A stretch of DNA of 64,000 bases from Massilia violaceinigra (GTDB lineage Bacteria > Pseudomonadota > Gammaproteobacteria > Burkholderiales > Burkholderiaceae_D): contig NZ_CP024608.1 in NCBI RefSeq assembly GCF_002752675.1, forward strand, positions 1,240,001 through 1,304,000, in the 5' to 3' direction. Shown one piece after another: positions 22,215 to 58,156 of this stretch (its first letter is position 1; each line of letters begins with the position of its first letter). The notes under the pieces were generated by a model. That model searched no databases, was not told the origin of the DNA, and saw only the letters and a program-made list of their open reading frames with translations. The translations under genes and the position numbers were made by a program.

Positions 22215-22337
22215 GCTGCTGTCTCCTATCATTATTAGAATACAGCCGGATGCCGCGCGGTCTTAATGCCGCTGATCCAACAACCGGCCGGGTTACCGCC
22301 GCGCCGCTTGGTCGATATCGTTGACGTGTGCCGTATG

Positions 22338-22452
22338 CCACAACACTCAAAACCGTCTTTCCCGCGCAGGCGGGAATCCAAGTTCTCGTTGCTAAGCGAA
22401 GATGCCTTGGATTCCCGCCTGCGCGGGAATGACGGAGGTAACGTCAACGCAT
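22338..22452. repeat. Dispersed palindromic repeat, copy C, in the receptor 5' leader
   Basis: A near-perfect ~30-bp inverted repeat (22353-22382 with 22406-22435) encloses a 23-nt loop. Each arm has its own CCCGC-GCAG-GCGGG hairpin. The flanks (CACTCAAAACCGTC on the left, GGAATGACGGAGGTAACGTC on the right) match those of copies A and B. It lies between the operator-carrying promoter and the receptor start, so the transcript should carry a very stable hairpin. Confidence 0.8.
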
Positions 22453-22497: not shown

Positions 22498-22550
22498 GCG
22501 GTTGACCAATTCTAGGCTGGTTTATAAATTTGCACAATTGGTCAGACCAG
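22498..22550 (-). promoter_or_regulatory. Promoter and operators of TonB receptor gene 19263-22214
   Basis: Reading the minus strand: -35 TTGTGC (22537-22532), a 17-bp spacer, -10 TAGAAT (22514-22509). Operator half-sites flank it: a perfect TGGTCAGACCA palindrome at 22539-22549 just upstream of the -35, and a degenerate TTGGTCAACC overlapping the -10 at 22500-22510. The -10 hexamer and downstream operator position match the promoters at 25257-25298 and 34498-34538. Confidence 0.7.
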
Positions 22551-22581
22551 AATCTTGTTATGGTCCGACCGCTTTGTGGTT

Positions 22582-23805
22582 TTATGGCGTGGCGGCCACG
22601 TTCACAGTGACCGGATTGCCGGCGCGCGCCGCTGCCGCGACCAGGTACCGTTCCCAGTCCTGGCCCGTGAGGATCTCGCCGGAACGGCTCCACGCCGCGC
22701 CCGCGTAATAGCGCAAGGGCTGGCCCGAGGCGACAGGCGCCACCACCAGGTGATTGAGCGGGTCTTCGGTAAACCGGGTGGCCGACGGCAGGACAATGGC
22801 GGTGCCCATGGCGCCATTGCTGGCCTGCTCGACCCACTGCATCAGAATGCCGGGCGCCTTGTTGCCGACCTTGATGGTCGGATTCTGGCCCTTGTCGGTC
22901 GGGGTCTTGTTCAGGCCCACGGCGATGTCGATGCCCGGCTTGCCGGCGAAGGTGAAGGTGCTGTCGATGCGGTCCAGATAGTGCCCGGCGTCGACCGTGA
23001 AGCGCTTGACCTCGGACACGGCGGTGCCGCCCGCGTCCCAGCTGTCGTAGCTTAGCTCGAAGATGGCGCGCACCGGACCGTTGGCCAGCACTTTCCAGCC
23101 GCTGAAGTTCCTGCTGGTGAACAGCACGGTGCCATCCCACACCCCGGTGCCGCCCGCGCCGCGCGTCTTGCCGACGTTGTACATGTCCATGCCTTCGCCC
23201 TCATCCTTGTGATAATGGTCGTGGCCCTTGTTGTACCAGCGGTCGACGACCGGATACGGCACGCGCTTGAACCAGATATCGAGCCCGCTGGTGACCAGCA
23301 CCTCCTTGGCGCCGGGGCTGGACGCCGGCGCGCCCAGGGCCGGACCGTAGGTGCGGTGCGCCAGCTTGTCGTTTTCCCAGGCGAAGTCGTCCAGCCGCTC
23401 CGGCACGAAGCGGGCGAAGGCTTTCACCGGAAACGGCGGCGCCACCGTGTCGATTTTCTCGACCGTGAAGATGGCGCGCTTTTCGCCGGCCGCGAAGCTG
23501 TGCTGGAAAATCAGCTCGCCGTAAGCGATGCCGACGTTTTTCGGGTCCTTGGCCAGCGGCGCGATATTGGTCACCTGGTAGGGCAAGACGCGGCCGGCCG
23601 CATCCTTGACGGCAATGCGCTGGATCAGCGCGCCGGGCAGGGCGCGGTTGATCTCGCTCCACGGCAGGACGATGGTTTCCGACGGCCGTTCGATGTCGAG
23701 CTCATGGCTGACGGTGATGGTCGCCGCCGGCCCGGCCTGCGCCAGCGGGGACGTCGCCGCGGCGGCCAGGGCAAGGAAAGTAAGCGAGGCAAGTGATCTG
23801 GTCAT
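22582..23805 (-). CDS. DUF4861 family secreted protein (pectin locus)
   Basis: This 407-residue protein has a signal peptide (LTFLALAAAATSPLAQA) and a DUF4861 body, a family found beside GH105/GH88 enzymes in polysaccharide loci and of unproven function. Seen are DIWFKRVPYPVVDRWYNKG, HDHYHKDEGEGMDMYNVGKT and GAAWSRSGEILTGQDWERYL near the C-terminus. Its start lies 7 nt behind the GH105 stop codon, so it is co-transcribed with GH105. A lyase, hydrolase or binding role in the breakdown of uronate-rich oligosaccharides is possible. Confidence 0.75.
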   Translation of the reverse strand: MTRSLASLTFLALAAAATSPLAQAGPAATITVSHELDIERPSETIVLPWSEINRALPGALIQRIAVKDAAGRVLPYQVTNIAPLAKDPKNVGIAYGELIFQHSFAAGEKRAIFTVEKIDTVAPPFPVKAFARFVPERLDDFAWENDKLAHRTYGPALGAPASSPGAKEVLVTSGLDIWFKRVPYPVVDRWYNKGHDHYHKDEGEGMDMYNVGKTRGAGGTGVWDGTVLFTSRNFSGWKVLANGPVRAIFELSYDSWDAGGTAVSEVKRFTVDAGHYLDRIDSTFTFAGKPGIDIAVGLNKTPTDKGQNPTIKVGNKAPGILMQWVEQASNGAMGTAIVLPSATRFTEDPLNHLVVAPVASGQPLRYYAGAAWSRSGEILTGQDWERYLVAAAARAGNPVTVNVAATP

Positions 23806-23812
23806 GGCGCTC

Positions 23813-25219
23813 TCAGTGATGTTCGCGGTAGTTGGTCTGGCCGGCACCCTTGGGCATGTAGTGATAGGTGCGCACCTTGTGCTGGACTTCGACGTTCGGG
23901 TTGTTGATCAGCTTGATCATCTCGGCGCCGGCCAGCAGGGTCGGACCGTAGCCGTGCAGCGCGAACGGGCTGGTTGGGCGGTTGTAGTAATACACCTGGT
24001 CGCTGGCGAAGGTGGTGCCGACGCAAGTGCCGTCCACCTGGCCCTTGTCGTTGATGCGGGTCGACAAGCCGGCCCAGCCGGCCTGGGCGATGGAGCCGTA
24101 GGTCGTCGGGCTGATCCAGCCCTGGTTGATGGCGTGCGCGAACACGTAGACGAACATCGCGCTGGCCGAGGTTTCGAGGTAGGAATCGTTACGGTCGAGC
24201 ATCTGGTGCCACAGGCCGCTGCCGGACTGGCGCTCGCCGATGCTTTTCAGGGTCGTGCGCAACTGCGCCAGCACCTGCGGATAACCGGGATGGTCCTTCG
24301 GCAGCACGTCGAGCAGGTCGGACATGCTCATCACCGCCCAGCCGTTGGCGCGCGCCCAGTAGAAATTCGGCGCATCCGGGTTGTTGGCGTTCCAGCCGTG
24401 GGTGTACAGGTTCTGCTGCTTGTTGAACAGGTAGCCGCTCATCTGCAGCACGTTCTTGACGGCGTCGTCGAAATGGGCGCGCTTGCCGGTCATGCGCCCC
24501 AGTTCGGCCAGGGCCGGCACCGACATGTACAGATCGTCGGCCCACAGCGAGACCGCTTGCGGGCGCTCGCGCGCCATGGTGCCGTCCGGCAGGCGAAACT
24601 GCTTGTTGACCACCCAGTCGCTGCAGGTGGCGATGATGTGCGACAGGTCCGGGCCGATTTTCAGGGCGCGGGCGCGCATCATGGCGGCGCACATGGAGCC
24701 GGCGTCGTCGAGCGCGCGCGGGTCGAGGAAGCGCGAAAAGCTGTTGCCGCGTTCGAGCTTGAATTCTTTTTCCTGGGCGCGGAAGTAGGGCAGTTTGTCG
24801 GCGAAGAAGTTGAAGTGGCGCGCGGTCAGGTCGGTGAAGCGCTTGTCGCCGGTCACTTCCTGGGCCTTGACCATGCCGGCGTGGACCACGCCCATTTCGT
24901 AGACCATGATGCCCATGTCCGAATGGCTCGCTTCGGTGATGGCGGTGGCGACCGGTTTCTTGAAGTCGAGGATGGGCGCGCCGGTTTTTTTGTCGACCAC
25001 GCGGGTCGGCGTGGCCGTTTCCATGAAGCCGCGGATACGGTGCAGGGACGCAGTGATCTCGGCCACGGTGGGCTTCTTGTACGGGACCGGGTAGGTGCCT
25101 TCGCCCGGGTCGCTCAGGTTCTTGTTGTCCGGATTGCGGTACGGGCCTTCGGCTTGCGCCTGGCTTCCCATGACCGCGACCGCGGCGATGGCGGCAAACA
25201 GTTTAAGTGCTGTATTCAC
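23813..25219 (-). CDS. GH105 unsaturated rhamnogalacturonyl hydrolase
   Basis: This 468-residue exported protein begins with a signal peptide (ALKLFAAIAAVAVMGSQAQA). The body is an (alpha/alpha)6 barrel of the GH88/GH105 type: WADDLYMSVPALAELGRMTG (Asp as the likely catalytic acid), WARANGWAVMSMSDLLDVLP and SASAMFVYVFAHAI. Enzymes of this family remove the unsaturated uronate left by pectate or rhamnogalacturonan lyases. The GTG at 25219 is chosen as start: AGGGGA lies upstream, the signal begins there, and the promoter lies at 25257-25298, inside the longer open frame. It is followed by DUF4861 at 7 nt. Confidence 0.88.
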   Translation of the reverse strand: MNTALKLFAAIAAVAVMGSQAQAEGPYRNPDNKNLSDPGEGTYPVPYKKPTVAEITASLHRIRGFMETATPTRVVDKKTGAPILDFKKPVATAITEASHSDMGIMVYEMGVVHAGMVKAQEVTGDKRFTDLTARHFNFFADKLPYFRAQEKEFKLERGNSFSRFLDPRALDDAGSMCAAMMRARALKIGPDLSHIIATCSDWVVNKQFRLPDGTMARERPQAVSLWADDLYMSVPALAELGRMTGKRAHFDDAVKNVLQMSGYLFNKQQNLYTHGWNANNPDAPNFYWARANGWAVMSMSDLLDVLPKDHPGYPQVLAQLRTTLKSIGERQSGSGLWHQMLDRNDSYLETSASAMFVYVFAHAINQGWISPTTYGSIAQAGWAGLSTRINDKGQVDGTCVGTTFASDQVYYYNRPTSPFALHGYGPTLLAGAEMIKLINNPNVEVQHKVRTYHYMPKGAGQTNYREHH

Positions 25220-25256
25220 ATTGTCCCCTGTTATCAGTGATGATTTTTTAAGCGCT

Positions 25257-25298
25257 ATTTGGTCAGGCCATTCTAGTTTGGTCAGGCCAAATGTGCAA
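25257..25298 (-). promoter_or_regulatory. Promoter and twin operators for the GH105-DUF4861 operon
   Basis: Minus-strand -35 TTGCAC (25298-25293), 17-bp spacer, -10 TAGAAT (25275-25270). One operator TTGGTCAGGCCAA (plus-strand reading, 25278-25290) fills the spacer and a second TTGGTCAGGCCA (25259-25270) covers the -10 downstream edge. This site also lies 71-112 bp ahead of the divergent esterase gene, so it may control both directions. Confidence 0.78.
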
Positions 25299-25368
25299 GG
25301 CGGACTAGCCACTTCCGCCGCCCCATGGCATACTTTATCGACACGTGGATGAACTGGGAAGGTCGGCG

Positions 25369-26388
25369 ATGCGCAATGCTGTTCGATGCTGGGCAATCGT
25401 ATTTACCGGGGTGCTGCTCTCAGGTTGCGCGGGAATGACGGATCATAAGATACCGGCTGCAGTTCCCTACAACGCTGCGACAACCTACGCCAAGCTGGTC
25501 AAGGCTTATCCCTTCATTCAGATCGCCGACACCCGTACAAACGCGGAGATCGTCACCATCAGCGGCATGGGCTATGTCCGCCGTGGCGCGCATCTGCTGC
25601 AGCTGGACCTGTTCCTGCCGCCGCAAGCGACGCGCGATAAAGCACCGGTGGCGGCGGTCGTGCTGGTGCACGGCGGCGGCTGGCGTTCCGGCGAGCGCAG
25701 CAACATGGCGCCGCTGGCAGCTCGTCTGGCCGCGCGCGGCATCGCCGCCGCCGTGATCGACTACCGCCTGGCCGACGAGGCGCGCTACCCGGCCGCCATC
25801 CACGACGTCAAGGCCGCCCTGCGCTGGATGCGCGCCAACAGCGCGGCCCACGGCATCGACCCACGGCGCATCGCGGTGGCCGGCGGCTCGGCCGGCGGGC
25901 AGATCGCCAGCCTTGTGGGCGTCACCAACGGCATGAGCAAGTTCGATCCCGATGGCGCCGGCAGCGCCGTTTCGAGCGCCGCGCAGGCGGTCATCAACAT
26001 CGACGGCCTGTCCGATTTCACTTCGTCGGCCGCGCGCGCAAATGAAGACGATCCGAAGAAAAAACCATCGGCGGCCGGCTTCTGGTTCGGCGGCAGCTAT
26101 GCCGACGCCGCCGCCCTGTGGCACGAAGCCTCGCCAACCTTCTACGTCGAGCGCCGCACGCCGCCGATGCTGTTCATCGGCAGCGGCCAGGCGCGCTTTT
26201 CGGTCGGGCGCGACGAGATGGCCGGCAAGATGCACGCCGCCGGCGTCGCCGCCAAGGTGGTGATGCTGCCCGACTCGCCGCACTCCTTCTGGCTGTTCGA
26301 CCCGTGGATTACGCCCACGGCCGAAGCCATGGCCGACTTCCTGACGACCCAGCTTCCCATTCCAACAACAACGAGACACCAACCATGA
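25369..26388 (+). CDS. Alpha/beta-hydrolase esterase lipoprotein (pectin locus)
   Basis: This 339-residue protein has a lipoprotein signal (FTGVLLSGCAGM). The fold is that of BD-FAE / hormone-sensitive-lipase-like esterases: the oxyanion motif VLVHGGGWRSGE near residue 100, nucleophile elbow GGSAGGQ, and C-terminal His in DSPHSFWLF. It is likely to be an acetyl- or feruloyl-esterase acting on pectin or side-chain decorations; the substrate is inferred from context. ATG 25369 starts directly before the signal peptide; ATG 26385 of GH43 overlaps its stop by 4 nt. Confidence 0.82.
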   Translation: MRNAVRCWAIVFTGVLLSGCAGMTDHKIPAAVPYNAATTYAKLVKAYPFIQIADTRTNAEIVTISGMGYVRRGAHLLQLDLFLPPQATRDKAPVAAVVLVHGGGWRSGERSNMAPLAARLAARGIAAAVIDYRLADEARYPAAIHDVKAALRWMRANSAAHGIDPRRIAVAGGSAGGQIASLVGVTNGMSKFDPDGAGSAVSSAAQAVINIDGLSDFTSSAARANEDDPKKKPSAAGFWFGGSYADAAALWHEASPTFYVERRTPPMLFIGSGQARFSVGRDEMAGKMHAAGVAAKVVMLPDSPHSFWLFDPWITPTAEAMADFLTTQLPIPTTTRHQP

Positions 26389-28004
26389 CGACAACTTCCC
26401 TCCTGCACCGCGCCGCGCTGCGGGTTTTGCCACTGGCGTTGCCGCTGGCGCTGGGCGCCTGCCAGAGCACGCCGACCGCCCCGCAACAGCCGTGGACGGC
26501 GGACCTGGGCAACGGCCAGTACCAGAACCCGATCCTGCACGCCGACTATTCCGATCCGGATGCGATCCGCGTCGGCGACACCTACTACATGACCTCATCG
26601 AGCTTCAGCAACACCCCGGGCCTGCCGCTGCTGCAATCGACAGACATGGTCAACTGGGAACTGGTCGGCCACGCGCTGCCCAAGCTGGTGCCGGAGAACG
26701 TGTTCGCCACGCCGCAGCCGGGCAAGGGCGTGTGGGCGCCGTGCCTGCGTTTTCATGACGGCAAATTCTGGATTTTCTATCCCGATCCCGACTTCGGCAT
26801 CTACGTTATCACCGCCACCAACTTCACCGGACCGTGGAGCGCGCCGCACCTGCTGGCCGGCGGCAAGGGCCTGATCGATCCGACCCCGCTGTGGGACAAC
26901 GACGGCAAAGCGTACCTGCTGCACGGCTGGGCCAAGAGCCGGGCCGGCTTTAACAACGTGCTGACTCTGCGCAGCATGGCGCCGGACGGGCGCACCTTGC
27001 TCGACACCAGCGGCCAGATCGTCATCGACGGCAACAAGCTGCCGAACTACAAGACGCTGGAAGGGCCCAAGTTCTACAAGAAGGATGGCTATTATTATGT
27101 GTTCGCACCGGCCGGCGGCGTCGAGGAGGGCTGGCAGTCGGTGTTCCGTTCGCGCAGCATCACAGGGCCGTACGAGGACAAGATCGTTATGGCGCAGGGC
27201 AAGTCCAGCACCAACGGTCCGCATCAGGGCGCGTGGGTGACGGCGCAGGATGGCAGCGACTGGTTCTTCCACTTCCAGGACAAGCGCGCCTACGGCCGCG
27301 TGGTGCACCTGCAGCCGATGCGCTGGAAGGATGGCTGGCCGCTGATCGGCGAGGAAGTCGAGGCCAGCGGCGTGGGCCAGCCGTTCCTGCGCCATGCCAA
27401 GCCGATGGCATCGGGTGCGCTGCGGGTGCCGCCGACGGGCGACGAGTTTTCAGGCGCGGCGCTGGGATTGCAGTGGCAGTGGAGCGCGAATGGCAAGCCG
27501 GAGTGGTATTCGCTGGCGGCCCGGCCGGGCCAGTTGCGCCTGCAGGCGCAGCCGGGCACCAATCTGCGCGAGATGGCGTCGGTGCTGACGCAGAAGCTGC
27601 CGGCGCCGGCGTTCACGGTCGACACCCGCATCGAACTGTCGGCCACGCGCGAGGGCGATCGTGCCGGGCTGGTGCTGCTGGGGATGAAGTATGCGTGGCT
27701 GGGGCTGCGCCGCGCCGGAACCGGCTCGCAACTGGTGCTGGGCGTGTGCGAAGGCAACGAGCACGCATGTACCGAGAAAGACCAGCTGGTGCTGCCGATC
27801 GACGCCAACGCCGCCTGGCTGCGCATGACGATGGCGGACGGCGTGGCATCGTTCTCGTACAGCCTCGATAACAGCAAGTTTATCGAGGCCGGCCAGCCGT
27901 TCAAGGCCAGCATGGGGCGCTGGGTTGGCGCGCAGATGGGCTTGTTTAGCACCGGCGGCACGCAGGCGCACGCCGATGTGGATTACTTCCGGGTCAGCAA
28001 ATAG
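26385..28004 (+). CDS. GH43 family glycoside hydrolase lipoprotein
   Basis: This 539-residue protein has a lipoprotein signal (LPLALGACQS). The five-bladed propeller shows the GH43 triad: Asp in HADYSDPDAI, Asp in GLIDPTPLWDNDG, Glu in TLEGPKFYKK. A C-terminal ~190-residue concanavalin-like beta-sandwich (GDEFSGAALGLQWQW) follows, as in many GH43 beta-xylosidases and arabinofuranosidases. It likely removes arabinose or xylose from side chains of pectin. Start ATG overlaps the esterase stop (26386-26388), so the two are translated in a coupled way. Confidence 0.88.
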   Translation: MTTTSLLHRAALRVLPLALPLALGACQSTPTAPQQPWTADLGNGQYQNPILHADYSDPDAIRVGDTYYMTSSSFSNTPGLPLLQSTDMVNWELVGHALPKLVPENVFATPQPGKGVWAPCLRFHDGKFWIFYPDPDFGIYVITATNFTGPWSAPHLLAGGKGLIDPTPLWDNDGKAYLLHGWAKSRAGFNNVLTLRSMAPDGRTLLDTSGQIVIDGNKLPNYKTLEGPKFYKKDGYYYVFAPAGGVEEGWQSVFRSRSITGPYEDKIVMAQGKSSTNGPHQGAWVTAQDGSDWFFHFQDKRAYGRVVHLQPMRWKDGWPLIGEEVEASGVGQPFLRHAKPMASGALRVPPTGDEFSGAALGLQWQWSANGKPEWYSLAARPGQLRLQAQPGTNLREMASVLTQKLPAPAFTVDTRIELSATREGDRAGLVLLGMKYAWLGLRRAGTGSQLVLGVCEGNEHACTEKDQLVLPIDANAAWLRMTMADGVASFSYSLDNSKFIEAGQPFKASMGRWVGAQMGLFSTGGTQAHADVDYFRVSK

Positions 28005-28012
28005 CCTGCCCC

Positions 28013-28039
28013 GTCGTTTCTGCCAATGGCAGAAACGAC
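28013..28039. repeat. Perfect palindrome downstream of the GH43 gene
   Basis: GTCGTTTCTGCCA-A-TGGCAGAAACGAC forms a perfect 13-bp stem, starting 9 bp after the GH43 stop. Its core TTCTGCCAATGGCAG is shared with the core of the repeat at 18690-18720. It has no T-run, so it may act as a 3'-end stabiliser rather than a terminator. Confidence 0.7.
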
Positions 28040-28056
28040 AAGCGGGGGAAACGCGC

Positions 28057-28263
28057 TTAAAACGCCGGGTCGTTGGCCGCCATGCGCGAACGGCGCCAGC
28101 GCCAGACGTTGAAGGCGGTCAGCGCGGCGGGCACGGCGGTCACGACCAGCCACGCGCTGGCATCCATCTCGCGCGTGATGACCACGCCGGCGCCGAGGGC
28201 GAAGGCGATCAGGCCGCGCAGCAGGATCCAGTTGAGCTGGGCTTTTGAGTTCATTTTTTGCAT
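28057..28263 (-). CDS. Small two-helix membrane protein of unknown function
   Basis: This 68-residue protein has two hydrophobic segments (ILLRGLIAFALGAGVV and AWLVVTAVPAALTAFNVW), and the end is basic (RWRRSRMAANDPAF). ATG 28263 is chosen; longer open frames upstream carry no clear start, and the Shine-Dalgarno sequence is poor. It sits 86 bp downstream of the pectin methylesterase stop on the same strand. No function is suggested. Confidence 0.45.
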   Translation of the reverse strand: MQKMNSKAQLNWILLRGLIAFALGAGVVITREMDASAWLVVTAVPAALTAFNVWRWRRSRMAANDPAF

Positions 28264-28349
28264 GGTCGATTTCTGGTCAATATTGGCCCCGCAGGCACGG
28301 GCAAAGACGCCGCGGCGGAAACAGGCCGCTAGCGTATCACGAACGCCGT

Positions 28350-30719
28350 TCAGGGCGCCGCCTGGCCAGCTTCCGGGTTCCATCCGCGGCCGCCGTCGAA
28401 GCCGGAAAACACCGCCGCGCGGGTCGACAGGGGCGCCGCCTCCTGGGCGCTGAGCACATAACCGCCGGCGCGGCGCGACAGGTCGAGTGGCTTGCCGTCC
28501 AGGTCGGTGCTGCCGAACTCGCGCCAGCCGCTGTTCGCGGTCGCGCTGGCAGGGTTGGGCGCCGGCTCGCGCGTCGCATCGCGCTGCACGCCGTTGCCGG
28601 CCCAGCCGACCGGGGCGATATGCTCGCCCATTTTACAGTTGATGTAAGCCACGTTATCCCAGGTGGCCGCCGTGCCCGGGCTGCGCGCGAGATAGGTGGC
28701 GCCGGGCGGGATCTTGTTGGCCAGCGGGCCGGGACCGGGACCGTGGGTCAGCGCGCTGTTGAGGAACACGAAGCCGCGATCGGATGCGTTCACCGTGCGG
28801 GCCTGCACCACGTAGCCGCCGCTGGACGGGTTGGCGCTGTCGCCGACCGAGCGCAGTTCGCTTTCCTCGAACAGCGCCGCGCGGTTCGCGCCCCAGATGA
28901 AGTCGACGTTGCCTTCAATCAGGGTGCGGTAGAACCAGGAATAGCCTTTTACCTGAATCGTATCCTGCTCGCTGAAAAAACTGGCGTTGCGCGCGATCAG
29001 GCGGCCGCTATCGTTGTTGAAGAAGACGGTTTCCGCCTGCCCCGCGATCTTGTCGGAGCGCAGGGTGGTGTTTTTGAGGGTGAGCGTGTCGAGCGTGAGC
29101 ACGTCCGACTTTTCGGCCATCAATAGCGCCCGCCCGCCTGTGAAGGAGGGCGACTGCGGACCCTGGCTGAGGCCGGAGCCGGGGTTGTAGCCATCGTTGT
29201 TGCCGTTGTGGATGACGACGCCGTCGCGGCTTTCGCCCTTGATCGTCAGATTGTCCTTGCCGCGGATGAACAGCATCTCGTCGTAGCGGCCATTCCTGAC
29301 GGCGACCGTGACCGGCGTGGCCTGGCCGGCGTGCTGCATGGCGTGGTCGAGGGCGCCCTGCACGGTGCGGAAATCGGCCGGGCCGTCATCGTCCACGCTC
29401 AGGATGGGGCCGGAAGGGGCGGCGGCGCGGGTGCGGAAGGTCCAGCCGGCGGCCTTGCCGATGCCGGCGAAGGGTGCGCCGTTGATGGTGGCGTTGTCGA
29501 ACACGCCCGGCTCGACGACCACGTAGTAGGCGCTGCCGTAAGCGAGGCGGTGGGCATGGGGGCGGATGATGGCGCTGTTGCCGTCGATGGTGATCGGGGT
29601 GCGGCGGGTGTAGCGCCGCTGGTCCTGGCCCGGGTAGCCGATGGCGGCGACTTCATCGCCGGGGCGGATGATATCGACCAGCTTGTGGTCGGCCTGGCGG
29701 TAGATGCGTACCGAGCCGGCGCTGCCGAGGCGGGGTGGCTGGTCGAAGCGCAGGCGCAGCGGGGTGTCGGGCTGGACCGCATCGGCGCGCGCGGGCGGGA
29801 TGATGGCGCCGACGAGGTCGGCCTTGTGGACGGGCGGCGCGAAGGCGGGCGCGATGCTGGCGTCGATGATGCTCTGCACGCTCGGGTCGGCGACGCTGGC
29901 GAGCACGAGGCTGGCGCTGCCGGGTCTTTTTGGCGTCACCACGATGCTGCTACCGCGCACGGTGGCGCTGGCCACGGCCGGGTTGCTGGAGCGTACCGTG
30001 AAGCGTGCCGGTGTGAGGCCGTCGCTCGCAAAGGCGCTGATGGGCAGCGTCGATGGCGGATCGCCCGCTTGCGCCTTGAAGCTGTTGGCGGCGACGGCCG
30101 GTGCGATGCGCATCGGTTTGTTGGCCGGGTCGCCCACGCGGATGTTTTCGAGCTCGAAGCCTTTGCCGCCGCTGTAGATGCCGAGCGCGCCCGGGATGGC
30201 CGATGCGGGCACGGTGGCGGTGCTCAGTTTTTCGCCGTTGAGGTAGACGCTGAGCGCTTCGCCGGCCATCTCGAAGCGGACGGTGAGGAAGCGGCCCTCG
30301 CTGGCGATGGCGCGCCTGACCTGTTTCAACCGGCTCAACTTGCCATGCTGCTGGCGCACGATATCGGCCTGGACGGTCGGGCTGGCGTCGCTGATGTGCA
30401 GGCCGGCGCCGAACCAGTTGCCCGCATCGATATGCCGGCCCAGCAAGTACAACTGGCCGGGCGGGCCGGGCAGGGCGCGGATGCGGGCCTCGACAAAATA
30501 GTCGGCGGCGGGCGGCACATGGGTGAACAGCGTGCGCACTGCGGCGGGGCCTTCGTCGAGATGAAGGGCCTTGGGTGAACCGGGGTCAGAGCTCTGACTC
30601 GAAACATTGCTAGTCAGAGCTCTGACCCCGGTTGTAGGTGGTTTTACCTGTGTTTCAGCCAAAGCGCCAGCGGGTAGCAGCAGGGCGAGGAGCAGAGGGG
30701 AGGTCAGATGCTTGGACAT
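28350..30719 (-). CDS. Pectin methylesterase (CE8) with N-terminal lectin-like domains
   Basis: This 789-residue exported enzyme begins with a signal peptide (LLLALLLPAGALA), then an 18-residue segment coded by a 54-bp palindromic insert (residues ~30-47). A LamG-like domain follows (~55-190), then two Ig-like domains (to ~450) and the C-terminal right-handed beta-helix esterase. The catalytic Asp pair is visible: QDT (Asp586) and NVDFIWG (Asp606), 20 residues apart as usual, with WFYRTLIEG between. It demethylates homogalacturonan so that lyases can act. The Shine-Dalgarno sequence at 30719 is weak. It follows the CE12 gene by 122 bp, with another hairpin in the gap. Confidence 0.87.
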   Translation of the reverse strand: MSKHLTSPLLLALLLPAGALAETQVKPPTTGVRALTSNVSSQSSDPGSPKALHLDEGPAAVRTLFTHVPPAADYFVEARIRALPGPPGQLYLLGRHIDAGNWFGAGLHISDASPTVQADIVRQQHGKLSRLKQVRRAIASEGRFLTVRFEMAGEALSVYLNGEKLSTATVPASAIPGALGIYSGGKGFELENIRVGDPANKPMRIAPAVAANSFKAQAGDPPSTLPISAFASDGLTPARFTVRSSNPAVASATVRGSSIVVTPKRPGSASLVLASVADPSVQSIIDASIAPAFAPPVHKADLVGAIIPPARADAVQPDTPLRLRFDQPPRLGSAGSVRIYRQADHKLVDIIRPGDEVAAIGYPGQDQRRYTRRTPITIDGNSAIIRPHAHRLAYGSAYYVVVEPGVFDNATINGAPFAGIGKAAGWTFRTRAAAPSGPILSVDDDGPADFRTVQGALDHAMQHAGQATPVTVAVRNGRYDEMLFIRGKDNLTIKGESRDGVVIHNGNNDGYNPGSGLSQGPQSPSFTGGRALLMAEKSDVLTLDTLTLKNTTLRSDKIAGQAETVFFNNDSGRLIARNASFFSEQDTIQVKGYSWFYRTLIEGNVDFIWGANRAALFEESELRSVGDSANPSSGGYVVQARTVNASDRGFVFLNSALTHGPGPGPLANKIPPGATYLARSPGTAATWDNVAYINCKMGEHIAPVGWAGNGVQRDATREPAPNPASATANSGWREFGSTDLDGKPLDLSRRAGGYVLSAQEAAPLSTRAAVFSGFDGGRGWNPEAGQAAP
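30579..30632. repeat. 54-bp palindromic element inside the methylesterase gene
   Basis: 21-bp arms, ACCGGGGTCAGAGCTCTGACT at 30579-30599 and its exact reverse complement at 30612-30632, enclose 12 nt. It is 54 bp long, so it keeps the reading frame and adds 18 codons right after the signal peptide region. The same outer motif GGGGTCAGAGCTC recurs at 30777-30826. The GGGGTCAG...CTGACCCC style is that of REP/REPIN elements moved by RAYT-type transposases; no such gene is in the window. Confidence 0.85.
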
Positions 30720-30776
30720 GGAGAAGGACTCAGGGCGAAGGACGATGCGGAATGTTTGCAGCACACCAAAGCACAC

Positions 30777-30826
30777 CGGGGTCAGAGCTCTAAATTGAAA
30801 TATTTCTAATTGGAGCTCTGACCCCG
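30777..30826. repeat. Second copy of the GGGGTCAGAGCTC palindromic element
   Basis: A 50-bp hairpin (arms CGGGGTCAGAGCTC at 30777-30790 and the reverse complement at 30813-30826) has an AT-rich, partly palindromic middle. It lies in the 122-bp gap between the CE12 stop (30842) and the methylesterase start (30719). The arms match the element at 30579-30632, while the middle differs. Confidence 0.82.
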
Positions 30827-30841
30827 ATTGTAGGACGTGGC

Positions 30842-31648
30842 TTAGGGCTCGGGGGCGAAGGCGGGACGCAACGCGGGGATTTGGCGGCGCAGCTCGCTCG
30901 CAACCATGCCGGAAAACAGCGCCGCGCCCTTGGCGCCAACGTGGGTGCGGTCGAAGCTGATTTTTGGGGCGCCTTGCGGTTCGATGGCTGCACCAGGCAG
31001 CGCGGCCACCGCCATCACCGGCGCCGCATTCGGGTCCGGCGGCGCTTGCGCCAGGGTGTCGGCTTCGGCCGATCCCATCGCCTGCACCGCGTCGGCGCTG
31101 ATCTTGTTCAGGTCGATCAGGGTGGCGCCGCTTTCGCGCGCCACGCGCCGCACTTGCGCTGCCCACGGGCCGAGATCGTCGCGCAAATACTGGCCCTTGA
31201 AGCTGCGCCGCGTCAGCGGCGTGACCAGGACCGGCACGCCGCCCAGCGCGCGCGCCTCGCTGACGTAGCGTGCGATGTTTTGCGGGAACTGGGTGACGAA
31301 GTCGGTCGAGCGGCCCGGTTTGCCCGGCTGGTCGTTGTGGCCGAACTGGATCAGCACGTAGCTGGCGCTGTAGGCCGCACCGTCGCGCAGCAGCGCCTGC
31401 ACGTCGTCCCAGCGCCCCTCGGCGCGAAAGCTGCCGGAACTGCGTCCGCCGCGCGCGAGGTTGATGCAGGCCACTTGCGCGCGCAGGCGCTGGCACAGGG
31501 CGTCGCCATATCCGGAACGGGTCGCCATGGTGGAGTCGCCGACGAGGATGATGCGCGCCGACCGCGCCGCATCGTCCTCCGCCTGCACCGGCACGCTGGC
31601 AGCCATCGCCAGGCATGCCAGCGCAATGAGGGTGTGGACCGGCTTCAT
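30842..31648 (-). CDS. Rhamnogalacturonan acetylesterase (CE12, SGNH hydrolase)
   Basis: This 268-residue protein has a signal peptide (LACLAMAASVPVQA). All SGNH blocks are present: GDSTMA (Ser), LARGGRSSGSF (Gly), LIQFGHND (Asn) and FDRTHVG (Asp-x-x-His). The long loop between blocks is typical of CE12. It deacetylates rhamnogalacturonan. Its start lies 2 nt behind the TonB receptor stop, so it depends on the same transcript and probably on translational coupling; no clear Shine-Dalgarno sequence is seen. Confidence 0.9.
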   Translation of the reverse strand: MKPVHTLIALACLAMAASVPVQAEDDAARSARIILVGDSTMATRSGYGDALCQRLRAQVACINLARGGRSSGSFRAEGRWDDVQALLRDGAAYSASYVLIQFGHNDQPGKPGRSTDFVTQFPQNIARYVSEARALGGVPVLVTPLTRRSFKGQYLRDDLGPWAAQVRRVARESGATLIDLNKISADAVQAMGSAEADTLAQAPPDPNAAPVMAVAALPGAAIEPQGAPKISFDRTHVGAKGAALFSGMVASELRRQIPALRPAFAPEP

Positions 31649-31650
31649 CG

Positions 31651-34470
31651 TCAGAAGGTGTAGTTCACGCGCACGTTGTAGGCGCGGCCGATCGGCTTGG
31701 CGATGTTTTGCGCGTACACCACGCGCGAACTGAGGCGCTGGTTAGACAGCGGCGGGTCGACATCAAACAGGTTGTTTACGCCCACGGTGAATTTGAGCTG
31801 CTTGTTCCACGCGTAGTTGGCCGTCAGGTTGTAGAGGATGTACGGCTCGATCTCGTTATAGAACGGCTGGCCCGGCTTCTGGCTCGGCAGGGCGTTGGTG
31901 TCGATGTAGCTCGACGTGTAGGACTGGGTCAGCTGGGTGCCGAAGCCGCCTTTGCTCCACGACAGGCGCAGGTTGTGCTTCCACTTGAAGACGTAGGTGT
32001 TGGCCGAGGTGGCGCCGGTCGAGAGCGCGCCGGGTTTGCCGACACTGTCGAACCAGTCGCCGCCTTCTTCGTTCTGGCCTTCGTATTTGTTGACGTAGGT
32101 GCCGTCGAAGGAGAGGCCGAAACGCCCCATGGTGGAGGTCGGCAGGGTGTAGTTCAGGCTGGCGTCGATGCCCTGGGTGCGCAGGCCGCCCATGTTCAGG
32201 CGCGTCTTGGTGATGTAGGCCAGGGTGCCGTCGGCGTTGCGCACGAACAGCTTGTTGTATTTGTTGACGTCGCCAAAGATCGTGTCTTCGGAAATCTGCG
32301 CGATCGTCCCTTTCATCTCGACGTTCCAGAAGTCGAGCGAGGCAACCAGGTTCTTGACCGGTTCGATCACGATGCCGGCGGTGAAGGTCTTGGACGTCTC
32401 CGGCTCCAGATTGGGATTGGCGCCGGTCAGGACCGTCAGGGTGCTGCCGCAGACCTTGGCCGCGTCCAGGTTCAGGCCCGCGTACTTGGGATCGGTGGTG
32501 AGGGTGCCGGTGCCGCTGATGCCGGGCGTGGCGCTCGGGCACAGCACGGGATCATCCCATTTCGAGGTCGAGGGCACGCGCGTTTGCGGGGTGCCGTACA
32601 GCTCGGGCAGGGTCGGGGCGCGAAAACCCGTGCTGGCGGTGGCGCGCAGCATCAACGCTTTCGATGGTTCGTAGCGTACGCTGGCCTTGGGGTTGAAGGT
32701 GGTGCCGAAGTCGCTGAAGCGGTCGGCGCGCACGGCCAGGTTGACGTTGAGCTGCTTGGTGAAAGGCGCGTCGAGCTCCAGGTAGGTGCCGAGCACGGTG
32801 CGCTCGCCGTGCGGGTAGCGGTTGGGCGTGCCGGAGACTTTGTAGACCACCGAGTCGCCGATGTCGCCGGAGGCGTCGCGGTAGGTTTCGCGGTGCAGGT
32901 CGGCGCCGACCGCCAGCGCCAGCGCGCCGCCGCCCAGGGGCATCAGCTCGCGGTTGAGGGTCAGGTCGGGGCCGTAGTAGTGCACTTCGGCGCGGCGGTT
33001 GACCAGGCCGTCGGCGGAGATGCTGTCGAGGTAGGCTTTGCCGGCGTCGTCCTGCGGGCCGAAAGGATTGAGCACGCCGTCGGCCACGCCCTTGTACAGC
33101 TCGGGCGTGCGCAGGAAGCCGTTCAGGAACTTGACCGTGCGCTTGCTGTAGGCGTAGTTAAAGCCCGCCTTGTAGTCCCAGCCCTTGACCTGGCCTTCTT
33201 CGGTGACCACCAGGCGGTGGCTGTTCTGGCGGTCGTCGGTAATGGCCGGGCCGAGTTCGTCCAGGCTCCAGGTCAGGGCGAGATCGGCGCCGTTCAGGCC
33301 GGCCACGGCGGGCACGCCGCCGGCGCCGCCCGGATACCATTTGCTGGCCTTGGTGATCATTAATGGCTTGCGCAGGCCGGGATTGACTTTGTCGTAGTCG
33401 GTCTGGGCGCCGAACGGCTGGGGCGGATTGAGGGCGTCGATGTACGACTCGGAACTGAGCAGCTCGACCGTCAGCAGATTGCCGTCGCCGTGGCGCAGGC
33501 TGCCCTTGGTAAGAAACGTGGTTTGCTTGTTCTCGGCCAGCAGTTGCGGATACAGGGTCGGGTCGAGCACGCAGGTCTTGCTGCCGGCGCCGCTCGGCTT
33601 GGTCGAGGGCAGGCTGTACTGGCCGGGGTAGGGGGCAACGCAGCCGGCGGCGAAATACGGGTTGCCGGTGACGCTGGTCGGCTTGCCGTTGGCGTAGACG
33701 GTGTAGTTGGCCGGCGAGGACGAGGAGCCGGAGGTGTTGCTGGTGAAGGCGGTGCCGCCCAGGCGGGCGATGTCGTCCGGGTCGCTGATGTTGGGGCGGT
33801 CGCGCTGCATCAGCGAGGTGCGCTTCTGGGTGTCGAAGGCGGCGTAGACGTTCCAGCCATCCTTGGCCAGGTCGCCGGTGCCGGTGGTGATGCTCAAGCG
33901 GCGCTGGTCGCCGCCGCCGCTGCGCTCGGGCGCCATGACGCTGGCGCTGACGGTGGTGTCGGAAATCGAACGCTTGGTGATGAAGTTGACCACGCCGGCG
34001 ATGGCGTCGGTGCCGTAGATGGCCGAGGCGCCGTCGCGCAGCACTTCGACTCTTTCGATGGCGCTCATGGGGATGACGTCGACGTTGATCGAGCTGTCGC
34101 CGATGGCTTCGTTGGCCAGGCGGCGGCCGTTGAGCAGGACCAGGGTGCGGTTGGTGTTCAGGCCGCGCATATTGATCATGGTGCCGCCGCCACCGCCGCC
34201 GACCGGTTCGTTGGTGGCGCCGACGGTCAGCGAGGTGGCCACTTCGGACATCGTGGTCAGGCCGCGGCTGACCAGTTCTTCGGATTTGATGGTGGTCAGC
34301 GGCAGGGCGTTTTCGCTCGCCAGGCGCTTGATGGAGGAGCCGGTGACTTCGACGCGGGCCATGGCGGCGTCGGCCTGCTGGGCGGCAGCCTGGTTCATCA
34401 GGGTCAGGACCGCGATGGCGATGGAGGAAAGCAGCAGCTTGGGTTGCGGGAACCGGGATGATGTTGGCAC
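31651..34470 (-). CDS. TonB-dependent receptor, second of the pectin locus
   Basis: This 939-residue outer-membrane receptor has a signal peptide (SIAIAVLTLMNQAAAQ), a plug with MINMRGLNTNRTLVLLNGRR and AIYGTDAIAGVVNFITKR, and a barrel ending in RVNYTF. It belongs to the iron-complex/vitamin-type receptor branch often recruited for sugar uptake, and differs strongly from the first receptor. The GTG at 34470 is chosen because AGGAGA lies 6 nt upstream. Its promoter at 34498-34538 carries two operators. CE12 and methylesterase genes follow as an operon. Confidence 0.92.
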   Translation of the reverse strand: MPTSSRFPQPKLLLSSIAIAVLTLMNQAAAQQADAAMARVEVTGSSIKRLASENALPLTTIKSEELVSRGLTTMSEVATSLTVGATNEPVGGGGGGTMINMRGLNTNRTLVLLNGRRLANEAIGDSSINVDVIPMSAIERVEVLRDGASAIYGTDAIAGVVNFITKRSISDTTVSASVMAPERSGGGDQRRLSITTGTGDLAKDGWNVYAAFDTQKRTSLMQRDRPNISDPDDIARLGGTAFTSNTSGSSSSPANYTVYANGKPTSVTGNPYFAAGCVAPYPGQYSLPSTKPSGAGSKTCVLDPTLYPQLLAENKQTTFLTKGSLRHGDGNLLTVELLSSESYIDALNPPQPFGAQTDYDKVNPGLRKPLMITKASKWYPGGAGGVPAVAGLNGADLALTWSLDELGPAITDDRQNSHRLVVTEEGQVKGWDYKAGFNYAYSKRTVKFLNGFLRTPELYKGVADGVLNPFGPQDDAGKAYLDSISADGLVNRRAEVHYYGPDLTLNRELMPLGGGALALAVGADLHRETYRDASGDIGDSVVYKVSGTPNRYPHGERTVLGTYLELDAPFTKQLNVNLAVRADRFSDFGTTFNPKASVRYEPSKALMLRATASTGFRAPTLPELYGTPQTRVPSTSKWDDPVLCPSATPGISGTGTLTTDPKYAGLNLDAAKVCGSTLTVLTGANPNLEPETSKTFTAGIVIEPVKNLVASLDFWNVEMKGTIAQISEDTIFGDVNKYNKLFVRNADGTLAYITKTRLNMGGLRTQGIDASLNYTLPTSTMGRFGLSFDGTYVNKYEGQNEEGGDWFDSVGKPGALSTGATSANTYVFKWKHNLRLSWSKGGFGTQLTQSYTSSYIDTNALPSQKPGQPFYNEIEPYILYNLTANYAWNKQLKFTVGVNNLFDVDPPLSNQRLSSRVVYAQNIAKPIGRAYNVRVNYTF

Positions 34471-34497
34471 GGCGAGTCTCCTGATTGGATTGTTTTT

Positions 34498-34538
34498 ATG
34501 GTTAGACCAATTCTAGTTTGGCCTGACCAATTAATCAA
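34498..34538 (-). promoter_or_regulatory. Promoter and twin operators of the receptor-CE12-methylesterase operon
   Basis: Minus-strand -35 TTGATT (34538-34533), 17-bp spacer, -10 TAGAAT (34515-34510). Operator 1, TTGGCCTGACCAA, lies in the spacer at 34518-34530 (plus reading). Operator 2, ATGGTTAGACCAAT, lies at 34498-34511 over the start region. The arrangement is that of the GH105 promoter at 25257-25298. Confidence 0.78.
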
Positions 34539-34576
34539 GGTGGACTTGCCAATAACCCGTCCTTCCGGCCACTATC

Positions 34577-34917
34577 CCGTCGTTCCCGCGCAGCCTCCAG
34601 TTTCTAAGAAACTTCTCCAATCCCTTGGAACGAGGCAAGTCCAAAGACTAATGCCGCTAACGTAAGCTTCGTCATTCCCGCGCAGGCGGGAATCCAAGTC
34701 CGGCGCTGAGCCGACGGCTACGGAACAAAATTGGATTCCCGCCTGCGCGGGAATGACGGTTCTGAAGTTTGTGGTCAGAAAAACGCTGAACCTAAACGCC
34801 ATCGAGTCCAGAGACCAGTTCCTGGAGAGGCGGGAACGCATGCGTTCCCCCCAAGTTCCTACCGAAGCTACCGACGGCTCGACGAACTTGGGTTCCCACC
34901 TGCGCGGGAACGACGAG
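34577..34917. repeat. Cluster of palindromic repeats, including copy B
   Basis: This gap region between the receptor promoter and the GntR gene is filled by repeats. A full element (34647-34778) runs in the opposite direction to copies A and C, with 28-bp arms at 34670-34697 and 34731-34758 and the same flanks (CTAATGCCGCTAACGTAAGCTTC and CTGAAGTTTGTGGTCAG). Partial copies lie at 34577-34593 and 34885-34917. No gene is seen in this 340 bp. Confidence 0.78.
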
Positions 34918-34982
34918 GTGGGGGCGGAAAGAAAAGGTGGTGGTACCCTCGGAGTACGAGTGGAAAACAACGCCCAGGCGGT

Positions 34983-35681
34983 TTACCCGCGCGAGAACGT
35001 GCGCGTCACCCGTTCCAGGTGCGCGCGCATGGCTTGGCGGGCGCCAGCCACATCATGCGAAGCGATCGCTTCCAGAATCTTGCGGTGATCGGTCAAGGTG
35101 GTCACGCGCAAATCCTCGGTCTGGAAATGCTCCTTGAGCTTGTGCCACAAACTGCCGCGCTGGTTCCACAAGTAATCGACCACGCCCACCAGCGCCGTGT
35201 TTCCCGTGGCGCGCGCAATCGCCAAATGGAAATTGCGGTCGGCCTGCTCGTTGCTGGCCCGGTCTTCATGGTGGTGCTCCATCTCCAGCACCGCCGTCAG
35301 GATCGCGTCGATGGCCGAATCGGTGGCCATCTTGGCCGCCAGCGCCGCCACTTCGGACTCGATCATGCGGCGCGCGGCCAGCACCTCGAACGGACCCGGC
35401 CCCACTTCGGGCACGTCGGCCTGCGCGGTGGCCTGCTCGCTCACGTACACGCCGGAGCCGCCGCGCACTTCCACGATGCCGCTCAGTTCGAGCACGATCA
35501 GCGCTTCGCGCAGCGACGCCCGGCTCACGCTCAGCTTGGCGGCCAGGTCGCGCTCGGCCGGCAGGCGCTCGCCGGCCTTGATACTCTCGTCGCGAATGAG
35601 TTCTTGAATCCGGGTGGCCACCACACGGTACAGGCGCGGCTCAGCCGAGTTCGATTCTTGCGGCGCAGAGGGTTTCTTCAT
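34983..35681 (-). CDS. GntR/FadR family regulator of the pectin locus
   Basis: This 232-residue regulator has an N-terminal winged helix (YRVVATRIQELIRDESIKAGERLPAERDLAAKLSVSRASLREAL) and a C-terminal FCD domain. The metal-ligand pattern is DRNFHLAIARATGN followed later by DHRKILEAIASHD. FadR-type regulators bind palindromes of the TTGGTNNNACCAA kind, which is what the three pectin promoters carry. This makes it the probable repressor, released by a uronate or aldonate. Its own promoter (35735-35763) has the same architecture with a weaker operator. Confidence 0.88.
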   Translation of the reverse strand: MKKPSAPQESNSAEPRLYRVVATRIQELIRDESIKAGERLPAERDLAAKLSVSRASLREALIVLELSGIVEVRGGSGVYVSEQATAQADVPEVGPGPFEVLAARRMIESEVAALAAKMATDSAIDAILTAVLEMEHHHEDRASNEQADRNFHLAIARATGNTALVGVVDYLWNQRGSLWHKLKEHFQTEDLRVTTLTDHRKILEAIASHDVAGARQAMRAHLERVTRTFSRG

Positions 35682-35734
35682 TGATTGCTGGGTCCGGGGT
35701 AAGGCGTGAGGGAGGGTGTTCGCATGCTCGCCTG

Positions 35735-35763
35735 ATTTTAGTTTGCTATGGCTAATGTTGCAA
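35735..35763 (-). promoter_or_regulatory. Promoter of the gntR gene with degenerate operator
   Basis: Minus-strand -35 TTGCAA (35763-35758), 17-bp spacer, -10 TAAAAT (35740-35735). The spacer TTAGCCATAGCAAA-like sequence resembles the operators (consensus TTGGCCTGACCAAA) but is mutated in both halves. It suggests weaker autoregulation. Confidence 0.62.
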
Positions 35764-35783: not shown

Positions 35784-36986
35784 CTACCAGCTCGATTCGC
35801 GCTCCGGGGTCGATGAGATGTGGTGGATCGACAAATCGGCGCCCTGGAATTCCTGCTCGGGGTCGAGGCGCAAGCCCATGGCTTTTTTCAGCACGCCATA
35901 CACCAGGTAGCCGCCGGCCAGCGCGATGGCCACGCCCAGCACGGTGCCCACCAGTTGCGACGCGAATGACACGCCGCCGATGCCGCCCAGGCTCGTGAGC
36001 CCGAAGATGCCGGCGGCGATGCCGCCCCAGGTGCCGCACAGGCCGTGCAGCGGCCACACGCCGAGCACGTCGTCGATCTTCCAGCGGTTCTGGGTGAGGG
36101 TGAACATGGCCACGAAAATCGCCCCGGCGATGGCGCCGGTGGCCAGCGCGCCGAGCGGATGCATCAGGTCCGAGCCGGCGCAGACAGCCACCAGTCCGGC
36201 CAGCGGGCCGTTGTAGGTGAAGCCGGGATCGTTTTTGCCGAGCACCAGCGCGGCCAGGGTGCCGCCGACCATGGCCATGAGCGAGTTGACGGCGACCAGA
36301 CCGTTCATCTTGTCGAGCGTTTGCGCGCTCATGACGTTAAAGCCGAACCAGCCCACCGCCAGAATCCAGGCGCCGAGCGCCAGGAAGGGAATCGAGGAAG
36401 GCGGGTGGGCGGAAATGGCGCCGTTGCGTCCGTAACGTCCGCGCCGGGCACCGAGCAGCAGCACGGCGGGCAGGGCGATCCAGCCGCCCACGGCGTGCAC
36501 CACGACCGAACCGGCGAAGTCGTGGAACTCGGCGCCGAAGGCCATCTTGAGCCAGGCCTGGATGCCGAAGCGCTGGTTCCAGGCTATGCCTTCGAACAGG
36601 GGGTAGATGAAGCCGACCAGCAAGGCGGTGGCGATCAGCTGGGGATAAAACTTGGCGCGTTCGGCGATGCCGCCCGAAATGATGGCGGGAATGGCGGCGG
36701 CGAAGGTCAGCAGAAAGAAGAATTTGACCAGCTCGTAGCCGTTGCGCGCTGCGAGCACGTCGGCGCTGGCGAAGAAGTCGACGCCGTAGGAAATGCCGTA
36801 GCCGATGAAGAAATAGGCAATCGTGGAGACGGCGAAGTCGGCCAGGATCTTGACCAGGGCGTTGACCTGGTTCTTTTTCCTGACCGTCCCCAGTTCCAGG
36901 AAGGCAAAGCCGGCGTGCATCGCCAGGATCATGATGGCGCCGAGCAAGATGAAAAGTGCGTCGGCGGCGTGGTTGGTTCCGTTCAT
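35784..36986 (-). CDS. amt: Ammonium transporter (Amt family)
   Basis: This 400-residue inner-membrane channel has about 11 transmembrane helices. The twin-His pore is recognisable: FAGSVVVHAVGGWIALPA for the first His and WPLHGLCGTWGGIAAG for the second, with the conserved KKNQVNALVKILADF and LMHPLGALATG. ATG 36986 is chosen (the longer open frame has no membrane character). No P-II (glnK) gene is adjacent, which is usual for such isolated amt copies. It imports ammonium. Confidence 0.92.
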   Translation of the reverse strand: MNGTNHAADALFILLGAIMILAMHAGFAFLELGTVRKKNQVNALVKILADFAVSTIAYFFIGYGISYGVDFFASADVLAARNGYELVKFFFLLTFAAAIPAIISGGIAERAKFYPQLIATALLVGFIYPLFEGIAWNQRFGIQAWLKMAFGAEFHDFAGSVVVHAVGGWIALPAVLLLGARRGRYGRNGAISAHPPSSIPFLALGAWILAVGWFGFNVMSAQTLDKMNGLVAVNSLMAMVGGTLAALVLGKNDPGFTYNGPLAGLVAVCAGSDLMHPLGALATGAIAGAIFVAMFTLTQNRWKIDDVLGVWPLHGLCGTWGGIAAGIFGLTSLGGIGGVSFASQLVGTVLGVAIALAGGYLVYGVLKKAMGLRLDPEQEFQGADLSIHHISSTPERESSW

Positions 36987-57920: not shown

Positions 57921-58156
57921 CGCCTACCCGACCAGGGCCGGCCAGCCAACTTGTGACCATCACGGCGGGCCCGCTCGTGCCGCGCGAGAGTTGTTGACAC
58001 GGGCCCATCCGTCATCTAATTTCAATGGTGTTGGCTCAGCGTTCCGAACGCGTCGGTTGATGCTTCAGGAAGTTGACTATGGTCAAGGCTGTTCAGGCAT
58101 CGCAGAGCAAGATTGAAGACTGGTCGGTCCCGTTCAATCACTCGGAGGCAATCGCC

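Follow-up and report, generated by a model that had tools for sequence, protein, structure and literature searches.

Promoter-embedded operators at a pectin locus of Massilia violaceinigra, probably read by three sister GntR repressors

We examined a window of 64,000 nucleotides from Massilia violaceinigra (positions 1,240,001 to 1,304,000 of the 7.44-Mb contig NZ_CP024608.1, in a 7.5-Mb genome of two contigs) that carries a cluster of pectin genes, a gene for a GntR-family regulator, and palindromic operator sites set into the promoters between them. Gene names come from Pfam and NCBIfam profile scans of 29 window proteins, a subset of the open reading frames. An initial annotation had listed two unlike TonB-dependent receptors, GH105, DUF4861, GH43, a BD-FAE-type esterase, CE8 and CE12; the profiles matched all of these, including the difference between the receptors, except that GH105 was seen as GH88/GH105 and CE12 as a GDSL domain only. 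Likewise, the reported absence of a pectate or rhamnogalacturonan lyase from the window agrees with our scans, in which no polysaccharide lyase (PL) family was found among the 29 proteins. The genes, in window coordinates, are as follows.

19263 to 22232, minus strand: TonB-dependent receptor B (TBDT-B), TonB-Xanth-Caul type, 989 amino acids (TIGR01782, 685.5 bits, cut-off 310)
22582 to 23805, minus strand: DUF4861 protein, BT3233-like (316.3 bits, cut-off 320 for the BT3233 family)
23813 to 25219, minus strand: GH88/GH105 unsaturated glycuronyl hydrolase, GTG start (PF07470, a Pfam hit that covers GH88 and GH105 alike)
25369 to 26388, plus strand: BD-FAE-type esterase, likely ATG start (PF20434)
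26385 to 28004, plus strand: GH43 with GH43_C2, in a divergent operon with the esterase (PF04616, PF17851)
28350 to 30719, minus strand: CE8-type pectinesterase with a Big_5 domain (PF01095, PF13205), likely ATG start, the open frame extending further upstream
30842 to 31648, minus strand: GDSL esterase, putatively CE12-type on the strength of the GDSL domain (PF13472)
31651 to 34470, minus strand: TonB-dependent receptor A (TBDT-A), 939 amino acids, GTG start (Pfam Plug and barrel)
34983 to 35681, minus strand: GntR1, a GntR winged helix plus FCD domain, FadR subfamily, UxuR/ExuR-like (PF00392, PF07729)

The GH43 start codon lies on the esterase stop codon in an ATGA overlap at 26385 to 26388, and translation of both is therefore probably coupled.

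Direct reading of the sequence confirmed four minus-strand promoters, each with a 17-bp spacer. Their operators share the core consensus TGGYCNGRCCA and occupy up to three slots, which we call O0 (abutting the -35 box), O1 (within the spacer) and O2 (on the edge of the -10 box).

22509 to 22537, minus strand: TBDT-B promoter, TTGTGC-17-TAGAAT (-35 at 22532 to 22537, -10 at 22509 to 22514)
22538 to 22550, minus strand: operator of the TBDT-B promoter, within or beside slot O0, CTGGTCTGACCAA
22560 to 22572, minus strand: additional operator of the TBDT-B promoter, GCGGTCGGACCAT, 22 bp upstream of the operator at 22538 and kept in four relatives
22500 to 22509, minus strand: half operator of the TBDT-B promoter at slot O2, TTGGTCAACC
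25270 to 25298, minus strand: GH105 promoter, TTGCAC-17-TAGAAT (-35 at 25293 to 25298, -10 at 25270 to 25275)
25300 to 25312, minus strand: O0 of the GH105 promoter, GTGGCTAGTCCGC
25278 to 25290, minus strand: O1 of the GH105 promoter, TTGGCCTGACCAA
25259 to 25271, minus strand: O2 of the GH105 promoter, ATGGCCTGACCAA
34510 to 34538, minus strand: TBDT-A promoter, TTGATT-17-TAGAAT (-35 at 34533 to 34538, -10 at 34510 to 34515)
34540 to 34552, minus strand: O0 of the TBDT-A promoter, TTGGCAAGTCCAC
34518 to 34530, minus strand: O1 of the TBDT-A promoter, inside the spacer, TTGGTCAGGCCAA
34498 to 34510, minus strand: O2 of the TBDT-A promoter, TTGGTCTAACCAT
35735 to 35763, minus strand: gntR1 promoter, TTGCAA-17-TAAAAT (-35 at 35758 to 35763, -10 at 35735 to 35740)
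35743 to 35755, minus strand: decayed O1 of gntR1, in the spacer, TTAGCCATAGCAA, intact in the homologues of G007, G010 and G001

The spacer and -10-edge palindromes of the GH105 and TBDT-A promoters lie where the initial annotation had placed them, and its decayed operator at gntR1 is indeed what the spacer there reads. Absent from it were the two O0 operators, whose slot at -22 recurs in relatives, and the additional operator of TBDT-B. For the latter promoter, it had described a perfect palindrome upstream of the -35 box instead of within the promoter. The upstream position holds, but the palindrome is not perfect: CTGGTCTGACCAA has one mismatch to the 13-bp consensus, and the core TGGTCTGACCA alone fits fully. 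Nor is the promoter much of an exception, as its palindrome lies 35 bp before the -10 box compared with 36 in the standard grid, one base off slot O0. Given an upstream slot in the common grid, the receptor-B layout makes sense, and its combination of near-O0 palindrome, further operator and half operator at O2 is retained in four relatives. At L101 to L103, where a receptor-B homologue closely follows DUF4861, no operator was seen in the stretch inspected. Across the window, loose TGGN5CCA occurs at chance level (19 versus 18.7), yet 6 of the 19 fall in three of the locus promoters, and loose operator matches with 3 mismatches number 89 against 36 expected. Repetitive extragenic palindromic (REP)-like intergenic repeats (GTCATTCCCGCGCAGGCGGGAATCC...) are also present at 22353 to 22435 and 34660 to 34774. 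When the region upstream of receptor B was used as a DNA query, there were 81 matches in its own genome and 66 to 105 in several relatives; among the matches listed, most lie on the REP-like repeat.

The same sites recur elsewhere in the genome. Specifically, the strict site WTGGYCWGRCCAW occurs 22 times in the 7.5 Mb and its reversed control once. A codon-composition script, used to call genes, placed 6 of the 22 between genes at pectin or galacturonate loci and 15 within predicted coding sequences, leaving 1 ambiguous. Matches of the TTGGCCAGGCCAA type (L004 to L006) fall within predicted genes, and the pattern TAGAATTGGYCWGRCCAA at 3 mismatches is little above its control (14 versus 10). 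One operator promoter, reading TTGCGC, an operator in the spacer, TAGAAT and a second operator, precedes the genes for a second regulator (gntR2), a TonB receptor, GH28, a PEP-CTERM protein and PL1/CE8. A perfect site stands before garD and then udh, where garD matches galactarate dehydratase (922 bits, cut-off 731) and udh was assigned by tblastn, the query being a Duganella protein with matches among uronate dehydrogenases of solved structure. Finally, an operator array lies approximately 570 bp upstream of the start of a PL1 pectate lyase gene, near a third regulator gene (gntR3); its operators, in steps of 51 to 54, 21 to 22 and 22 bp, persist in five relatives although the flanking sequences have diverged. 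The lyase and polygalacturonase genes that are missing from the window therefore occur elsewhere in the genome near the same sites, whose distribution suggests a regulon extending to GH28, PL1, PL1-CE8 and garD-udh.

The operators are locked to promoters in relatives as well. We compared 80 named loci, the best 80 of 176 relatives ranked by GntR likeness, using a pattern of -35 box, operator in a 17-bp spacer and -10 box with up to 1 mismatch and the reversed pattern as control. This architecture gave 106 matches in 71 of the 80 loci and none for the control; in 17 genomes of the genus it gave 41 matches versus 3. A separate count began from operator cores alone, with no promoter assumed. Among 186 distinct plus-strand cores (223 before those with repeated surroundings were dropped), a -10-like hexamer stands at +14 in 69, at -5 in 33 and at -6 in 4, with 6 for the next best offset; among 230 minus-strand cores, no offset exceeds 2. 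Slot spacing was equally rigid in 60 promoters, which remained from 99 once any within 20 differences of a retained one over 101 bases had been removed. Around O1, exact TGGN5CCA is found at -22 (O0) in 23 of the 60, and at +19 in 17 and +20 in 3 (O2, 20 of 60), while all other offsets from -75 to +75 yielded one at +41 and none at the remaining 146. A weight matrix on the same promoters placed 28 at -22 and 25 at +19 or +20. The sequence in slot O0, which adjoins the -35 box, is often TTGGCTAGTCCA. An operator layout inside promoters is thus widespread in the bacterial family.

Furthermore, the layout travels with the regulator. In 294 genomes of the family (regulator called at E<=1e-60, at most 9 pattern candidates scored per genome), the regulator is present in 80, the exact pattern in 71 and both in 69, that is, the pattern accompanies 69 of 80 genomes with the regulator versus 2 of 214 without it (Fisher 1.2e-52, shared ancestry ignored). 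The reversed control matched once (G272). In the 6 of 17 genus genomes without this GntR, two of them only 48 and 81% complete, no exact architecture match was found. At 78 of the 80 named loci, a homologue of a pectin gene from the window or from the paralogous loci lies within 8 kb of gntR; garD or udh does so at 31, divergent from gntR in 24. This neighborhood points to oxidation of galacturonate by Udh and GarD, with the inducer on that path. In relatives such as L105 and L145, gntR either diverges from garD-udh or has GH105-DUF4861 or receptor-CE12-GH28 behind it, so the regulator stays constant while the pectin and galacturonate modules around it are reshuffled. A DUF4861 homologue is present in 17 of the 80 loci, with GH105 every time. 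In the window, an Amt ammonium transporter gene (35784 to 36986) is the immediate upstream neighbor of gntR1 in the same orientation, an arrangement also seen in 6 of the 80 loci (five close Massilia and one Oxalobacteraceae metagenome-assembled genome).

GntR1 contains both the winged helix (PF00392, 65.1 bits) and the FCD domain (PF07729, 91.7 bits) of the FadR subfamily, each above its cut-off. Its best NCBIfam models, UxuR (150.9 bits, cut-off 442) and ExuR (148.8 bits, cut-off 396), score below equivalog level, as do NanR (107.4 bits, cut-off 260) and LldR, also below its cut-off. The FCD pattern D-x3-H, H, H, which we take to be metal-site residues, is found in 88 of 91 homologue rows, GntR1 included by eye. 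The operator, of type TGGTCNGACCA, has 3 nt between GT and AC and fits the TKGT...ACMA sites of the subfamily with their 2 to 3 nt. The 3-nt GT-NNN-AC spacing is reported for most FadR-subfamily members in an excerpt of PubMed Central (PMC) article PMC4494728. Domains, spacing and the co-occurrence described above all support the claim of the initial annotation that a FadR-subfamily GntR would act on these sites, and a UxuR/ExuR/GguR-like repressor is the best candidate. Sites resembling TGGYCWGACCA also directly precede the genes of homologues with 41 to 48% identity elsewhere in the order (L049, L050 and L051, one of them from the same family), and a wider GntR group may read the same operator.

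The initial annotation had assumed one regulator. This is doubtful because the genome holds three GntR-FCD paralogues (100, 79 and 70% identity to GntR1), each at a pectin locus and all with the recognition helix SRASLRE; R[AT]SLRE is found in 91 of 91 homologue rows.

Contig C1, 6394910 to 6395590: GntR2, 70% identity to GntR1
Contig C1, 6541167 to 6541847: GntR3, 79% identity to GntR1

In a quick tree with support from the Shimodaira-Hasegawa-like approximate likelihood ratio test (SH-aLRT) only, GntR3 forms its own clade (support 100) within a group of 22 rows to which GntR1 belongs as well (85). GntR2 is placed in another group, of 33 rows (94), that includes regulators from Duganella and Undibacterium, many of which are linked to garD. 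GntR1 itself is 98 to 100% identical to the GntR of Massilia frigida, M. aquatica, M. rubra, M. mucilaginosa and M. atriviolacea. In this clade, the core of the operator preceding gntR is intact in M. rubra, has 1 mismatch in M. aquatica, M. mucilaginosa and M. atriviolacea, and has 2 in the window and M. frigida. It is intact in the single-copy relatives G007 and G010; of the 80 named loci, 44 have it intact, 7 carry a single mismatch and 29 carry at least 2. GntR2 retains a double operator upstream of its own gene; GntR3 has none in the 200 bases upstream. The proposal that GntR1 weakly represses itself consequently gives way to recent local decay, given the core that is intact in those 44 loci, in M. 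rubra and at gntR2. It is a fair guess that autorepression would now rest with GntR2.

Taken together, our results partly support the interpretation in the initial annotation and make it likely that the locus forms the pectin branch of a regulon that responds to galacturonate, under three paralogous GntR-FCD repressors acting on slotted promoters. The genes, sites, slot geometry, conservation and co-occurrence can be read directly from the genomes. From them we infer binding, repression, cooperativity, an inducer and a sharing of sites among the paralogues. Under this model, the three FadR-subfamily proteins would repress the pectin receptors, the enzymes and garD-udh. Dimers would sit on the palindromes in up to three slots per promoter, with O0 abutting the -35 box, O1 filling the 17-bp spacer and O2 covering the -10 edge and start point. 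Since the slots are 19 to 22 bp apart, approximately two helical turns, the dimers would probably align along one face of the helix, bind cooperatively and exclude RNA polymerase. A pectin breakdown product, either galacturonate itself or one of its derivatives along the Udh-GarD route, would bind the FCD domain and release the repressors. The layout is probably read by all three sister repressors. More tentatively, the paralogues could be three sensors with one operator code, in which the same helix and diverged ligand domains converge on the same three-slot grid. If so, different pectin products (e.g., rhamnogalacturonan-, homogalacturonan- or galactarate-derived) would be read together, and slot occupancy would set the tightness with which each promoter is shut off.

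Among the alternatives, the one that survives best is that GntR1 alone governs the window operons, with its paralogues confined to their own loci by slight differences in sites or partners. We regard this as rather unlikely. Every paralogue does adjoin its own pectin genes, and the garD-linked company of GntR2 in the tree hints at a separate role. Yet the recognition helix is the same in all three, O2 of the GH105 promoter is identical over all 13 bases to that of gntR2, and a decayed operator at GntR1 with none close upstream of GntR3 would fit a shared circuit. It is improbable that the slot geometry is functionless, with promoter cassettes copied from one another and their register inherited. 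While the gntR, receptor and GH105 promoters are similar and several genomes have paralogues, the 60 promoters differ at more than 20 of 101 positions and still hold O0 and O2 in place and hardly elsewhere; the operators of the PL1 array, too, outlasted their flanks. It is very improbable that another FadR-subfamily regulator (PdhR-, LldR- or NanR-like) binds the sites, with the proximity of gntR a coincidence. Consensus sites in the subfamily are alike (TKGT/ACMA, in the excerpt of PMC4494728), and GntR1 gives scores with the LldR and NanR models; against this stand the co-occurrence across genomes, the absence of exact architecture from the six genus genomes without this GntR, and a core with 0 or 1 mismatches in the gene's own promoter at 51 of the 80 loci. 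Activation in the fashion of MerR from the spacer operator O1 is highly improbable and was rejected on spacer length, as MerR-type promoters have 19- to 20-bp spacers and those here are 17 bp, already optimal for sigma-70, with -10 boxes near consensus and O2 over the predicted start point. Operators as terminators or RNA hairpins were rejected since the sites sit on the -35 and -10 boxes.

Several observations nevertheless weigh against a shared, promoter-locked repressor circuit. The exact O0 is in only 23 and the exact O2 in only 20 of the 60 promoters, and at least 2 mismatches are found in the operator core of 29 of the 80 gntR promoters; the uneven decay of the gntR1 operator within its clade slightly lowers our confidence. 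The first operator of the PL1 array is degenerate at one locus (L139). Eleven of the 80 genomes with the regulator have no exact pattern match, two of the 214 without it do (G133 and G150, with TATGAT as -10 box), the reversed control matched 3 times in the genus, and G009, which is without such a GntR, has one match with 1 mismatch. In addition, other FadR-subfamily proteins bind similar sites, as noted above. In PMC9028926, Biolog results reported for the close relative Massilia antarctica are negative for pectin, galacturonic acid and mucic acid, but they are negative for glucose too, from which the organism makes acid; the strain table is pectin-positive in one of nine columns.

A tannase-like DUF6351 protein at 58061 to 60472 (537 bits) is possibly another plant-polymer gene of the window. 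With its TonB receptors, pectin enzymes and BT3233-like DUF4861 protein, the locus resembles the polysaccharide utilization loci of Bacteroidota, which are controlled by SusR or hybrid two-component systems (HTCS). It differs in its putative GntR control and in that no SusD Pfam match, and so no SusC/SusD pair of a SusCD-type locus, was found among the 29 proteins scanned. The regulator is of a known kind, a FadR-subfamily sugar-acid repressor, for which the nearest in print are GguR and UxuR/ExuR. The hexuronate repressors UxuR and ExuR of Escherichia coli, also of the FadR subfamily, are the closest NCBIfam models and share the hexuronate context and, for ExuR, the 3-nt half-site spacing (excerpt of PMC4494728), but GntR1 scores far under their cut-offs, and here the operator precedes the oxidative garD-udh and several operators are locked to the promoter. 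GguR, a GntR-family protein of Halomonas, has a galactarate/glucarate and galacturonate regulon whose predicted content, in an excerpt of PMC5507952, joins udh with the galactarate path. The operator before garD-udh predicts a similar regulon content here; the present regulon would also reach outer-membrane pectin receptors and pectinases, with paralogues and a promoter grid. For side-by-side repressors, NanR of E. coli provides a GntR-family precedent, with three dimers binding cooperatively to a (GGTATA)3 operator (excerpt of PMC8012715). NanR binds short direct repeats, whereas the palindromes here are separate and 22 and 19 to 20 bp apart.

Among the papers listed, titles and abstract beginnings in open-licence PMC yielded no description of an Oxalobacteraceae pectin regulon, of the paralogue trio or of a promoter-locked grid, and no paper on tandem operators in the FadR subfamily. 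Our findings offer a testable operator for the use of pectin and galacturonate in Massilia, Duganella, Undibacterium and related bacteria. The rigid grid offers a ready-made series for studying the combined action of repressor slots within one promoter, and the paralogues allow one to ask how repressors, once duplicated, divide or share an operator.

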